This document shows, in pieces, positions 35,041 to 39,909 of a stretch of 45,281 nucleotides of DNA. Numbering within the stretch: position 1 is the first letter of the stretch; each line of letters begins with the position of its first letter. The stretch comes from Acidobacteriaceae bacterium (GTDB taxonomy: Bacteria > Acidobacteriota > Terriglobia > Terriglobales > Acidobacteriaceae), in NCBI GenBank assembly GCA_025934135.1, contig JAICYR010000005.1, positions 1 to 45,281 on the forward strand. The letters are read 5' to 3'. The notes beneath the pieces were generated by a model. It saw only the letters and a program-made list of their open reading frames with translations, was not told where the DNA came from and searched no databases. Made by a program: the position numbers and the translations under genes.

Positions 35041-35829
35041 ATGATGCTTACCGACCTGATACCGTTCGAGCATTTTCCCGGCGATAAGTCACTCGCACGC
35101 CGCGCCAGAATCAAGGGGCAGAAGGTGCTCTATTACCTGCTGACCGGATATTGGAACACCGGCGAGCGGCTGCATCCGTTTTTTGTGACGAACAACTACG
35201 TGAACCATCTGCGGGTGTATCAGTACATCAGCCAGTTCACCGCGGGTAAGCAGGCGCTGGACGTGGGCTGCGGCGTGGGCTATGGAACCGCGCTGCTGGC
35301 CAGAACTGCCGCCCGTGCTGTAGGTATCGACATTTCGCAAAAGGCAGTGAATGAGGCGTTCCGGCTGTATCCGGCGGGAGAATTTCTTCAAATGGATGCC
35401 GAGAACATGACGTTTCCCGACCAGAGCTTCGATGTGATTGTGAGCACTGAGAATTTTGAGCATCTGCCGAATCAAGCGAAGCATGTGCAGGAACTGGCGC
35501 GGGTGGTGCGTCCCGATGGCTTCTGTTTCGTCGCGACGCCCAACCCGGAGCTTTTCGTCGGGCAGAATAATCCGTTTCATACGAAGGAAAACACCTACTC
35601 CGAGCTGAGGGATTTGTTGTCGCGGTGTTTTCGAGAAGTTGAGATTGTGGAGCCTACCCGGGTTCCGACCAGTCCGGCGGGCAAGGCCGCGCATGAAGAG
35701 CGGTTCGCGCGAGGCGAGCATGGAACGCTGGTCACGCCGGAGCTGGAGATTTTTGGGCGAAAAGTCGACCAGACGTTTCTCTCCAATACGCACAGCTTCC
35801 ACTGCTTCGCACGAGGGCCTGTTGCGTGA
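35041..35829 (+). CDS. Class I SAM-dependent methyltransferase
   Basis: The product of about 262 residues has motif I ALDVGCGVGYGTALLA, the acidic strand AVGIDISQ, QMDAENMTFPDQSFDVIVS (motifs II and III) and VVRPDGFCFVATPNPELFV, a Methyltransf_11-type fold. The substrate cannot be told; a small molecule, lipid or sugar is likelier than DNA. The open frame goes far upstream, overlapping the divergent deacetylase gene; I chose ATG 35041 (35044 equally good), with 34963 as another option. It is followed 48 bases later by hisS in the same direction. Confidence 0.85.
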   Translation: MMLTDLIPFEHFPGDKSLARRARIKGQKVLYYLLTGYWNTGERLHPFFVTNNYVNHLRVYQYISQFTAGKQALDVGCGVGYGTALLARTAARAVGIDISQKAVNEAFRLYPAGEFLQMDAENMTFPDQSFDVIVSTENFEHLPNQAKHVQELARVVRPDGFCFVATPNPELFVGQNNPFHTKENTYSELRDLLSRCFREVEIVEPTRVPTSPAGKAAHEERFARGEHGTLVTPELEIFGRKVDQTFLSNTHSFHCFARGPVA

Positions 35830-35877
35830 AGTGCTGAAAACTCCCTGATATTCTGAAGTCTCACCCGAGATTTCTTG

Positions 35878-37497
35878 ATGAGCACTTTGAAAGCAGTTCG
35901 CGGCACGAGGGACCTTCTGCCGCCCGAAACCGATCTCTGGAACCGCGTGGAGGCGACGGCGCGGCAGGTCTTTGCCCGCTACAACTTCGGCGAGATCCGC
36001 ACGCCTGTGTTTGAGGACACGCAGCTTTTCGCGCGCGGCGTGGGCGAAGAGACGGACATCGTCTCGAAGGAGATGTACACGTGGGAGGACCGCGAGCGGT
36101 TCGATGCTCGTGCGATGAGGGAGGCGTGGCTCTCCCGAGACCCAAACTTCTTTAACTCACGGACAAACGTGAGAACGACGGAATCAACAATCGATCTGAT
36201 AGTCCAGCGTCCGGGAGTCCTTTTTGAAAAGCCGGTCAAAGTCGTTGAACTCGTGAATTTCAGGCCGACCATTCGGCAGCAGGACATCGACGATCTCAGG
36301 AAAATTGTCCACCGGTATTCACCCGAAGATCCTGCTGCTCAGAAGATCGGATTCTTGGTTGTTCCTTCACAACGAAACGCCGACTTGGCCACCAAGGAAC
36401 ACACGAGCAAGGACAAGGTCGTTGTCGTGCCGATTTCAGGGAAATTCTTCCAGTCCTCGCAGTCGCTGACGCTGCGGCCTGAGAATACGGCCGGGGTGGT
36501 CCGTGCCTACATTGAGTACAAGTTGGGCGAGAGCGGGCTGCTGCAAAAGCTCTTCTACATTGGGCCGCAGTTCCGGCGGGAGCGTCCGCAGAAGGGCCGC
36601 TATCGGCAGTTCTGGCAGATTGGGGCCGAGGTGATCGGGCCGCCCAGCGCAGGGTCGGAGTCTCCGGTGCGCGATGCCGAAGTGCTGGAGATGCTGGCGA
36701 CTTTTCTCGATGAGTTGGGGATCACCGGCTGGACGCTGGTGCTGAATTCCGTCGGCTCGGCGAATGATCGGCCACGCTACATTGCCGCGCTGCGCGAGGC
36801 GCTGAAGGACAAAGCTCCGAAGATGTGTGCCGACTGCCAGCGGCGCGCGGAGACAAATCCGCTACGTGTGCTCGACTGCAAGGTTCCGGAGGACCAGCCG
36901 ATTATCGAAACGCTGCCCCGAATCGCGGATTATCTGGATGAGGATTCGCGCGCGCATTTTGCCACGGTGCTGGCGGCGCTCGATGCCTGCGGTGTGAAGT
37001 ATGAGGTGAATCCCCGGCTGGTGCGCGGGTTGGATTACTACACGCGAACGGCGTTTGAGTTTACGCACGGCGGATTGGGCGCGCAGAACGCTCTGCTCGG
37101 CGGCGGTCGCTATGATGGGCTGTCAGAAGCGATTGGCGGGCCGAAGGCTCCGGGGATTGGGTTCGCGATTGGGCTGGACCGGCTGATTCTCACGCTTCAG
37201 GCGCAGGAGCAACAAGCGGTCACGCTGGCTGATGCGTACATTGCTCCGCTGGGCGAAGCGCAGAATTCGGCAGCTCTGGAGTTGGCGCGCGAACTGCGCC
37301 GGGCCGGGTTGCGGATTGAATTGGGCGACGGCAGTTTCCGGCTGAAAAAGTCTTTCGAGACCGGCGACAAGCTGGCGCGGAAGATTGTGCTGCTGGGCGA
37401 GGATGAGCTTCGCTCCGGTATTCTTACGGTGAAGGATTTCGCTTCAGGCGAGCAGACGAAAGTGCCGCGCGAGGAGTTGGCGAGTCATCTACGCTGA
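35878..37497 (+). CDS. hisS: Histidyl-tRNA synthetase with a ~119-residue internal insertion
   Basis: The enzyme charges tRNA-His. Its 539 residues exceed the family's usual 420-450. Class II motifs are present: VRGTRDLLPPE at the start, motif 2 RRERPQKGRYRQFWQIGAEV, the histidine-specific LVRGLDYYTRTAFEF and GGGRYDGL, and motif 3 GIGFAIGLDRL, followed by the anticodon-binding domain from about residue 440. The excess lies between EMYTWEDRER (to residue 74) and SQSLTLRPENTAG (from 194), where relatives have only a short turn. The frame is unbroken, so a longer protein should be made. The ATG at 35878 is preceded by a TTG that I did not use. Codon use and GC content of the insertion differ from the rest. 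Confidence 0.93.
   Translation: MSTLKAVRGTRDLLPPETDLWNRVEATARQVFARYNFGEIRTPVFEDTQLFARGVGEETDIVSKEMYTWEDRERFDARAMREAWLSRDPNFFNSRTNVRTTESTIDLIVQRPGVLFEKPVKVVELVNFRPTIRQQDIDDLRKIVHRYSPEDPAAQKIGFLVVPSQRNADLATKEHTSKDKVVVVPISGKFFQSSQSLTLRPENTAGVVRAYIEYKLGESGLLQKLFYIGPQFRRERPQKGRYRQFWQIGAEVIGPPSAGSESPVRDAEVLEMLATFLDELGITGWTLVLNSVGSANDRPRYIAALREALKDKAPKMCADCQRRAETNPLRVLDCKVPEDQPIIETLPRIADYLDEDSRAHFATVLAALDACGVKYEVNPRLVRGLDYYTRTAFEFTHGGLGAQNALLGGGRYDGLSEAIGGPKAPGIGFAIGLDRLILTLQAQEQQAVTLADAYIAPLGEAQNSAALELARELRRAGLRIELGDGSFRLKKSFETGDKLARKIVLLGEDELRSGILTVKDFASGEQTKVPREELASHLR
36100..36456 (+). other. In-frame foreign insertion within hisS
   Basis: These 357 bases code residues 75-193 of the synthetase. 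Hand count over 36121-36420 gives 155 G+C in 300 (52%), against 116 in 180 (64%) for lines 36001-36060 and 36481-36600. The encoded domain looks mixed alpha/beta: a first helix ARAMREAWLSRD, strands around TTESTIDLIVQRPG and VKVVELVNFRPT, a helix QQDIDDLRKIVHRY, then KIGFLVVPSQRNADL and DKVVVVPIS. The D-L-I-V, E-L-V and following helix recall a restriction-endonuclease-like fold, but the usual lysine of ExK is absent, so this is only a likeness. No intein motifs are seen. Confidence 0.8.
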
Positions 37498-37501
37498 TCG
37501 A

Positions 37502-37963
37502 TTACTTCTTTGATTTTTCTGCATAGGCTTGCATCCACTCTTGCAAGAGCCGGTTCGCCTCTTCCTTTGAAACATCGTCGGGCCAACACCCTTTGAATGC
37601 CGCGATAAAAGTGTCGGTGCGCTGTCGAAGCAATTCCCATTGCGGATCGACCAGAACTTCGGCTGGATTCAACAATTGCGGTGTAGCTGAGCAGAACCTG
37701 GTGAATTCATCTTGAAATTGATGGATTGCGATTTCCTGAACCGGCGTGAAGGTGCTTGCAAACGCTTCGACAAAACCGTCCAGAACATAATCATCAACTG
37801 TGTTAATCAATTCGTCGGGATGCTCCCAAAGATTCCAAGTACCCGCCCGCCAGCGATCTTCCTGCATTTGTTTGTTAGCGATGGCCTCGGCGGCCTCCAA
37901 TAGATTAGAAATCCAGCGCTGCGGGGTCATCGGCGAGCTATTCGAGACAGCCATGACATTCAT
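37502..37963 (-). CDS. Protein of unknown function between hisS and aspS
   Basis: The product of about 153 residues is soluble and acidic in its middle, with tryptophans in QRWISNLLEAAE, TWNLWEHPDEL and LLQEWMQAYAE. I recognise no family; size and composition would suit an immunity-type protein, but nothing proves it. It is convergent with hisS, ending 4 bases after the hisS stop. Two sampled lines give about 51% GC, well below its neighbours and close to the hisS insertion, so it may be acquired. The frame opens at GTG 37972; ATG 37963 or 37954 are likelier starts, none with a clear ribosome-binding site. Confidence 0.6.
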   Translation of the reverse strand: MNVMAVSNSSPMTPQRWISNLLEAAEAIANKQMQEDRWRAGTWNLWEHPDELINTVDDYVLDGFVEAFASTFTPVQEIAIHQFQDEFTRFCSATPQLLNPAEVLVDPQWELLRQRTDTFIAAFKGCWPDDVSKEEANRLLQEWMQAYAEKSKK

Positions 37964-38040
37964 GAATAGCACAAGCCATTTTTGTCTGCAAAGATTCAGT
38001 ACACTGGAACAAAGATCTTGATCTCATTAGGAATGAATCA

Positions 38041-39909
38041 TTGCTGGACCTTTTAGGCACACTTACACGCACTCATACTTGTGGCGAGCTTCGCGCCGCT
38101 GACGCTGGAAAATCGGTCGTGCTGCTTGGCTGGGTCAACCGCCGCCGCGACCACGGCAACCTCATTTTTCTTGACCTGCGCGACCGCTACGGCATTACGC
38201 AGATCGTGCTGGACAAGGAAGTGGGCGAGGCCGCTCATGCCAAGGCCGAGCACTCGCGGCCTGAGTATGTAGTCGCCGCCGTGGGCAAGGTGCGGTTGCG
38301 CGACAAGGATGTGATCAATCCCAAGATGCCCACGGGCGAAGTCGAAATTGTCGCCAGTGAGCTGCGCATTTTGAATGACGCGAAGGTTCCGCCGTTTTCG
38401 CCTTCGGAAGAGGCCATTGGCAACGAGGAAGTGCGGCTGAAGTATCGCTACATTGACCTGCGCCGGCCGGAGATGCAGCGCAACTTCGAGGTGCGGCATA
38501 AGGTTGCGCTGGCGGTGCGTGAGTATTTGTCGGGCGAGGGATTCTTTGAGATTGAAACGCCGTTTATGACGCGCTCCACACCCGAGGGCGCGCGCGATTA
38601 TCTGGTGCCCAGCCGCGTGCATCCCGGCGAGTTTTACGCGCTGCCGCAGTCGCCGCAATTGTTCAAACAGATACTCATGATCTCCGGTATGGACCGCTAC
38701 TTCCAGATCGCGCGCTGCTTCCGCGACGAGGACCTGCGGGCCGACCGCCAGCCCGAGTTCACGCAGATCGACCTGGAGATGACCTTTCCGCAGCAGGAGA
38801 CGATTTTCGGAGTGGTGGAAGGTTTTATGGCTGCGGCGTTCAAGGCAGTGGGAATCGACCTGCCTGTGCCCTTCCCGAAGATTAGCTACGACGAGGCGAT
38901 GCGGAACTACGGCATCGATAAGCCCGACCTGCGGCTGCCGGGGCTGGCCGATGTGAAGGCCGCGTTCACGGCGGAGAACCTTGCCGCGCTGGTGATTGAT
39001 CCGAACCTGCCGGTGGTCGCGCTGCGGATTCCCAAAGTCGGCGAGCTATCTCGCAAGGAGCGCGACGACAACAAGCCGCTCTTCGATCAGCGAAAGGGCG
39101 CGAAGTACATTGATGACCTGAAGCGGCTGGAGAAGGGCTTTCCCGAGGCCGCCGCGAAGGTGCGGGAGTTGGCAGGGGCCGAGGCCGACGACCTGCTCAT
39201 CATTGTTGCGGGAGATGCGGCCACGCACATTCAAGCGTCTGACACGAAAACGCCGGGGCGGCTCTCGGAACGCGAAATCGCGGTTTACTCCGCTGCTGGA
39301 AATTTCCGCGTGGAGCTGGCGCGCAAATACGCCGAGCGGCACGGAGCGTTTGCCGTGACGGATGGTGTTGTGACCGATGAGGGCCGGAACACCGGCATTG
39401 TGGATGGCTCGAAGGCTTTTCGCCCAATTTGGGTGACGGATTTCCCCATGTTCGAGCATGATCCAGAGACCGGCAAGTGGATGCCGGCGCATCATCCTTT
39501 CACTTCTCCGCATGAGGAAGACATGGACCGGCTGGTTTCCGATCCGGCGTCGGTGCGCGCGCGCTACTACGATCTGGCGATGAATGGGCTGGAGCTTGGG
39601 TCGGGGTCGATTCGTATTCACCAGCAGCAGGTGCAGCAGGAAATCTTTCGCGCGCTCGGCATGTCGGATGAAGAGGCAAAGGCGCGGTTTGGATTCTTCC
39701 TTGAAGCGCTGCAATACGGAACCCCGCCGCACGGCGGCATCGCGCTGGGGCTCGACCGGCTGGTGATGATTCTGGCCGGAGCGAACAGCCTGCGCGAAGT
39801 CATCGCGTTCCCGAAGACGGCCAAGGCCATCGACCTGATGGTGGACGCGCCTACTCCGGTGAGCGAGCAGCAGCTAAGGGAGCTGCACATAAAGCCGACG
39901 AAAGGGTGA
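38041..39909 (+). CDS. aspS: Aspartyl-tRNA synthetase
   Basis: The 622-residue class IIb enzyme has the N-terminal OB-fold for the anticodon (VVLLGWVNRRRDHGNLIFLD). Motif 1 lies around EGFFEIETPFMTRSTPEGAR, and motif 2 in ARCFRDEDLRADRQPEFTQI. A bacterial GAD domain occupies roughly residues 310-430, and motif 3 is GGIALGLDRLVMILAG. It is about 30 residues longer than E. coli AspRS, with the difference in the middle. Whether it also charges tRNA-Asn cannot be read by eye. The start is a TTG at 38041, with AGGA about 13 bases upstream; no in-frame ATG fits. It is divergent from the unknown gene at 37502. Confidence 0.95.
   Translation: MLDLLGTLTRTHTCGELRAADAGKSVVLLGWVNRRRDHGNLIFLDLRDRYGITQIVLDKEVGEAAHAKAEHSRPEYVVAAVGKVRLRDKDVINPKMPTGEVEIVASELRILNDAKVPPFSPSEEAIGNEEVRLKYRYIDLRRPEMQRNFEVRHKVALAVREYLSGEGFFEIETPFMTRSTPEGARDYLVPSRVHPGEFYALPQSPQLFKQILMISGMDRYFQIARCFRDEDLRADRQPEFTQIDLEMTFPQQETIFGVVEGFMAAAFKAVGIDLPVPFPKISYDEAMRNYGIDKPDLRLPGLADVKAAFTAENLAALVIDPNLPVVALRIPKVGELSRKERDDNKPLFDQRKGAKYIDDLKRLEKGFPEAAAKVRELAGAEADDLLIIVAGDAATHIQASDTKTPGRLSEREIAVYSAAGNFRVELARKYAERHGAFAVTDGVVTDEGRNTGIVDGSKAFRPIWVTDFPMFEHDPETGKWMPAHHPFTSPHEEDMDRLVSDPASVRARYYDLAMNGLELGSGSIRIHQQQVQQEIFRALGMSDEEAKARFGFFLEALQYGTPPHGGIALGLDRLVMILAGANSLREVIAFPKTAKAIDLMVDAPTPVSEQQLRELHIKPTKG

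Follow-up and report, generated by a model that had tools for sequence, protein, structure and literature searches.

The window, meaning the whole 45,281-nucleotide stretch of DNA analysed here, carries a histidyl-tRNA synthetase gene (hisS) whose frame reads open from 35875 or 35878 to 37497. Its product matches the Pfam families tRNA-synt_His and HGTP_anticodon (E 1.8e-38 and 5.4e-13, respectively) and aligns with E. coli HisRS (1kmm; phmmer E 1.5e-109). The aspS gene (38041–39909) lies just downstream, and a small ORF (37502–37972) occupies the opposite strand between hisS and aspS. The features considered in this study are:

35878–37497, + strand: hisS, histidyl-tRNA synthetase of 539 aa including the insert (open frame with the two Pfam matches)
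36061–36099, + strand: 5′ arm of the host hairpin, which runs through EMYTWEDRER to the left junction (nucleotide-level comparison with empty alleles)
36100–36456, + strand: in-frame insert of 119 codons, a predicted nuclease-dead domain of PD-(D/E)xK fold that replaces the five-residue turn AQSEK of the empty hairpin (alignment to 102 empty hairpins; AlphaFold2, AF2; Foldseek and VIA)
36127–36129, + strand: Trp of insert helix 1, the sole residue invariant across all 36 distinct inserts (column conservation)
36193–36195, + strand: Asp of insert strand β2 (TIDL), where PD-(D/E)xK proteins have their PD Asp; Asp in 11 of 36 inserts (alignment tally; AF2 strand order)
36256–36264, + strand: Asn-Phe-Arg of insert strand β3, at the place of (D/E)xK, with the catalytic Glu and Lys lost (V-x-F core columns, β3-to-helix spacing and the VELK copy in genome G080)
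36457–36492, + strand: 3′ side of the host hairpin (SQSLTLRPENTA), starting at the right junction and resuming at E. coli residue 75 (comparison with empty alleles)

The 119 codons between EMYTWEDRER and SQSLTLRPENTAG are in frame, contain no stop and have no counterpart in E. coli HisRS, in agreement with a preliminary description of this DNA that reported a hisS lengthened by about 119 codons without frameshift or stop. Window residues 3–73 and 194–539 align to the contiguous E. coli residues 4–74 and 75–420 (phmmer, 1kmm), and the two aligned blocks meet at E. coli residues 74/75, the turn of the EMYTFEDRNGDSLTLRPE hairpin; because the flanking blocks align to adjoining residues, the insert lies exactly in the DR-NG-DS turn, which bears out the earlier placement at a hairpin turn between motifs 1 and 2. 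The window hairpin measures 133 residues against 19 in 102 of 146 distinct proteins from relatives, a net gain of 114 codons in which 119 replace about five (A-Q-S-E-K).

The window HisRS has the motifs of a functional bacterial enzyme: class II motifs 2 and 3, TLRPE, HisA and HisB. All carriers of the insert have an intact motif 2 and TLRPE, and HisA, HisB and motif 3 are likewise intact apart from contig-truncated copies and one HisA pattern variant, in line with the earlier proposal that a domain could be held here without breaking the catalytic core. In carrier genomes whose match extends across the insert, HisRS is matched once at E ≤ 1e-10, and none of the carriers showed a second HisRS. 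Since the motifs are intact and the carriers have a single HisRS, the domain must be compatible with essential function.

No splicing element was found. No C-terminal His-Asn precedes the right junction and no Pfam or NCBIfam intein family matches; searches of 35700–37700 against Rfam returned no group I or group II intron up to E 1.

Predicted fold and loss of the catalytic pair

The insert was earlier taken, from its sequence, to be a folded α/β domain, and structure prediction for two inserts agrees with this. The AF2 model of the window insert, built from the natural alignment (pLDDT 86, pTM 0.80), has the order helix, three strands, helix, strand, helix, strand. Foldseek placed EndoMS/NucS at the top of the matches to this model (E 9.7e-4), followed by MspJI, SfsA, Can2, HamA, XisH, BamHI and others of the PD-(D/E)xK fold, and VIA likewise returned EndoMS/NucS as the best match (Z 9.8 and 9.7). 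The insert of Bryocella, which is ~24% identical to that of the window and was modelled separately (pLDDT 82), gave Foldseek matches in which RNase H-like integrases were mixed with PD-(D/E)xK proteins, and a second look with VIA placed EndoMS first (Z 9.6), with Rpb5, VRR_NUC, Hjc and TSEN chains lower in the list. Most of the other entries in the VIA lists are also structures of PD-(D/E)xK type, some of them catalytically dead, as Rpb5 is. VIA values near 8 may reflect common arrangements, and weight is therefore placed on the consistency of the list and on the agreement of two models that draw on largely overlapping alignments and are only partly independent. Both modelled inserts are thus predicted to contain the α-β-β-β-α-β core of the PD-(D/E)xK superfamily; together with the absence of the domain from near relatives, this supports the suggestion that it is foreign and possibly a captured nuclease-like domain.

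Relatedness to known families is faint at the level of sequence. The window insert alone has no Pfam match, and the EndoMS/NucS family profile (PF01939) matches no insert significantly, with a best E of 0.15 in one insert only and nothing for the window. That insert, from genome G321, has weak NucS_C and Endonuc_Holl Pfam matches (E 0.15) and a phmmer match to P. abyssi NucS (2vld; E 1.2) over the same region, none of them significant. An hhalign comparison between the insert profile and a single acidobacterial NucS-like protein, a template without alignment depth, was also not significant. Nineteen inserts compared with Pfam, NCBIfam, PHROGs and PADLOC gave scattered weak matches only, a PDB sequence profile search returned chance matches, and a viral structure library returned mostly unnamed small proteins and no lead.

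Active PD-(D/E)xK nucleases have an Asp in β2 and (D/E)xK in β3; the window insert retains the β2 Asp and has V-N-F-R in β3. Of 36 distinct inserts, 3 have Glu at the Glu site of β3 and 1 has Lys at the Lys site, in a register inferred from near-invariant V-x-F columns, spacing to the following helix and hydrophobic alternation rather than from residue-level structure superposition. The (D/E)xK pair is kept in only one of the 36. Single entries may be misplaced, as the automatic alignment sets VEIG of the G321 insert out of register, and yet the overall loss of catalytic residues is clear. Related inserts have the same dead residues in common. V-E-L-K is intact solely in the G080 insert (L059; G080:C120:41286-41606), which is the best candidate for a still active nuclease.

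These residues bear directly on the possibility that the insert is a relic of homing without splicing. A small PD-(D/E)xK nuclease would have cut the empty hisS at its conserved turn and been copied in by repair; the turn tolerates the domain, so neither intron nor intein would be needed, and most copies would have decayed and been lost by conversion with empty alleles, while a few may be active. PD-(D/E)xK is indeed a known homing-endonuclease family (PMC3943268), homing elements, inteins and group I introns among them, are directed at conserved sites within conserved genes and pass through a cycle of invasion, decay and loss (PMC2814812), and one copy, that of G080, has an intact V-E-L-K. 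Against it stands the absence of the catalytic Glu/Lys pair from 35 of 36 copies, with dead residues common to related inserts, which implies that spread continued without cutting; the window copy itself lacks the residues for cleavage. On balance we consider this origin unlikely, though it is the main rival to the reading preferred below.

Distribution, gain and loss within the Acidobacteriaceae

An insert profile search found homologous inserts at exactly this hisS codon in 33 of 398 sampled Acidobacteriaceae genomes, representing 14 of 79 genera. The position holds wherever sequence context was read, and every carrier that was read has its insert in frame and without interruption. Every credible profile match among the 398 genomes falls in hisS at this one codon; the inserts form a single family, of common ancestry, at a single site. 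Three of the carriers are isolates (Terracidiphilus gabretensis S55, Granulicella sp. dw_53 and Bryocella elongata DSM 22489), and all named carriers are Acidobacteriaceae or otherwise unclassified Acidobacteriota. Genomes sampled from elsewhere in the order and class lack the insert, and no convincing homologue was found elsewhere in the sampled family genomes or, in a profile search of 396 genomes across the phylum, outside Acidobacteriaceae. Three weak matches outside the family in the latter search (E 0.002–0.006) were rejected as chance, falling in an aldehyde-oxidase-like gene or in antisense or short frames at their loci. Viral contigs, phages and plasmids searched with the insert alone yielded nothing. 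Thus no free-standing or intron- or intein-borne homologue was found in the searched sets, a further point against a homing relic. Two family genomes, G116 (C65 and C159) and G016 (C36 and C81), have two separate hisS-like matches each.

Seven same-genus genomes that possess a hisS have the empty hairpin, EMYTWEDRARAQSEKxQSLTL; the preliminary description had held that its reading would fail if all close relatives carried the same segment, which they do not. Hairpin length is bimodal in the 146 distinct family proteins, with 19 residues in 102, 117–149 in 32 and 26–55 in 10. The ten genes of intermediate length (L128, L136, L140, L025, L030, L120, L153, L177, L161, and L163) have short, unrelated-looking inserts at the same turn, among which L136/L140 and L161/L163 form two mutually similar pairs. 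These could be remnants or independent insertions; decay from longer inserts was considered, and their sequences give no proof of it.

In a tree of HisRS cores, built from 144 rows after the insert columns had been taken out, the insert is scattered almost at random. The 31 carriers need 26 presence changes, compared with a mean of 28.4 for shuffled labels, and well-supported branches force at least 16. In a two-state likelihood comparison, gain plus loss was better than gain only by 11 log units and than loss only from a carrier ancestor by 24, although gain and loss rates are rough since the sample is enriched in carrier genera and many branches are weakly supported. This near-random pattern speaks against an ordinary lineage-specific domain inherited vertically, and loss from a carrier root fits far worse. 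A chimeric assembly might be suspected because the window is one contig of an incomplete genome (completeness 88%) that is broken into 300 contigs; isolates have versions of the insert of their own, however, and because homologous inserts occupy the same codon in 33 of 398 family genomes, isolates included, a chimera is excluded in practice. Contradicted already by the tree, the likelihood fit and the isolate copies, vertical inheritance or misassembly is highly improbable.

The insert and core phylogenies are uncoupled. The cores of L001, L033 and L034 are 88–89% identical and their inserts 27–30%; L082 and L091 have 88% identity in the core and 19% in the insert; and L039 and L049 have 71% in the core and 72% in the insert. 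At synonymous sites, L094 and L206 are saturated in the insert with a core divergence of 0.77, and L004 and L213 differ by 1.78 in the insert with a saturated core. The junctions are sharp and flanks were not imported: no imported flank was detected between L096 and L170 (carrier versus empty, 93% core nucleotide identity), in which no difference is seen over the 25 codons preceding the junction, and a recombination-tract scan gave no sign of HisRS flanks travelling with the insert. Because the insert replaces a conserved turn, an empty allele is not easily made by simple deletion, and loss is more likely to proceed by conversion with an empty allele. The domain comes, goes and swaps between related species far faster than the surrounding enzyme evolves. 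One fixed site, patchy presence, movement across species and sharp junctions are all in keeping with a homing relic; patchy presence and recurrent gain are also what a selfish element would be expected to produce.

Constraint on the domain and its possible role

The GC content of the window insert is 52% compared with 63% in the core of the gene, close to an earlier hand count of about 52% and 64%, and its GC3 is 0.62 compared with 0.75. Insert GC3 is lower than core GC3 in all 36 distinct carriers, much diverged inserts included (means 0.55 and 0.77), and therefore inserts either settle too briefly to take on the composition of the host gene or derive from a pool of lower GC content; a source pool was not found. 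Low GC3 in every copy also accords with a homing relic. For most measurable insert pairs dN/dS is 0.10–0.21, and third positions change most; the insert is thus a selected protein domain, and purifying selection of this kind counts against a relic of homing. Three close species (the g80 trio L038, L039, and L046) carry related inserts and are separated by non-carriers in the core tree. In this trio dN/dS is ~0.5 in the insert versus 0.08–0.10 in the core, which fits relaxed constraint as well as it fits diversification.

If the hairpin tip simply tolerates extra sequence, the domain could have entered once and drifted between hisS alleles by homologous recombination as a passenger without function. 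The same turn accepts unrelated short inserts in 10 of 146 proteins (hairpins of 26–55 residues), and the HisRS motifs are unaffected. However, the long inserts are all of one fold family rather than random sequence, they evolve under constraint as judged by dN/dS, and their GC3 has not adjusted to the host despite much divergence. A neutral passenger is accordingly rather improbable.

We read the insert instead as a horizontally exchanged, unspliced, nuclease-dead PD-(D/E)xK accessory binding domain at the tip of the HisRS motif 1–motif 2 hairpin, nearest to the catalytic domain of EndoMS/NucS, a reading that we rank as the most likely and to which we give about as much credence as doubt. The domain would be made as part of the enzyme and fold outward from the hairpin, leaving catalysis untouched; it would pass from one hisS allele to another as a short recombination cassette, being kept for what it binds, not for cutting. 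As an accessory surface on HisRS it might shield the enzyme from an antagonist or dock a partner, and if the advantage of such a surface changes quickly, alleles would turn over and diverge. Net charge of the inserts has a median of 0 and pI a median of 6.5, and because the inserts are uncharged on average a protein partner appears more likely than a nucleic acid, although the window insert itself is basic (pI 9.9) and would fit nucleic-acid binding.

A homing relic accounts for site specificity, patchiness and the origin of the fold equally well as a binding domain does, but must explain the spread of copies without catalytic residues. A related version seems to us unlikely: a non-splicing homing nuclease, aimed at the conserved turn of an essential enzyme, would be tolerated there in frame as a folded domain, become inactive once fixed and give way to newer versions, the V-E-L-K copies of G080 type being its still active form. 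The domain may thus be regulatory, a binding module or a selfish relic.

Comparison with known systems

Essential synthetases are thought to acquire domains seldom and to retain them. Here a housekeeping enzyme gains, loses and exchanges a small domain across species, with almost no phylogenetic signal left and no splicing device, which implies either that HisRS in soil Acidobacteriaceae is under some unrecognised selective pressure or that mobile nucleases can live in proteins without introns or inteins; both alternatives are directly testable because soil bacterial isolates with and without the domain exist. The preliminary description knew of no HisRS insertion at this point, and no report of one was found in the open-access (PMC) literature, represented mostly by titles and abstracts. 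What is new relative to that description is an exchangeable family, limited to this Acidobacteriaceae site, mostly dead and uncoupled from the phylogeny of its host gene. Although the fold itself is familiar, we know of no earlier description of a nuclease-dead domain that is unspliced and exchangeable at one site of a synthetase.

The insert resembles the C-terminal nuclease domain of EndoMS/NucS (PF01939; PDB 2vld, 5gke, 5gkj) in fold, strand order and length; this domain is the best structural match of both modelled inserts and a weak sequence match of one insert over the same region. It differs from EndoMS/NucS in having no significant sequence homology, in the loss of (D/E)xK from 35 of 36 copies, in the absence of an N-terminal domain and in lying inside an aminoacyl-tRNA synthetase. 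The RNA polymerase Rpb5 jaw and the structural subunits of tRNA splicing endonuclease, which serve as parts of essential complexes, have likewise kept the fold and lost catalysis; however, dead domains of the Rpb5 type are fixed and universal in their lineages, whereas the HisRS insert is patchy and exchanged.

Other class II synthetases contain extra domains with editing or tRNA-binding roles, including INS of ProRS, GAD of AspRS and N2 of ThrRS, and these, unlike the insert, are stable and clade-wide. We know of no class II synthetase domain at this HisRS hairpin, or of one exchanged like a cassette. Rickettsia palindromic elements are non-spliced, in-frame coding insertions of about 45 residues, repeat-based and present in many genes; they share with the insert the absence of splicing and tolerance by the host protein, but the insert is one folded domain family at one site in one gene. 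Inteins and group I introns with homing endonucleases share with it a single site in a conserved essential gene, a patchy distribution, horizontal movement and decaying nucleases (PMC2814812, PMC3943268), whereas the insert has no splicing element and the host protein keeps the domain.
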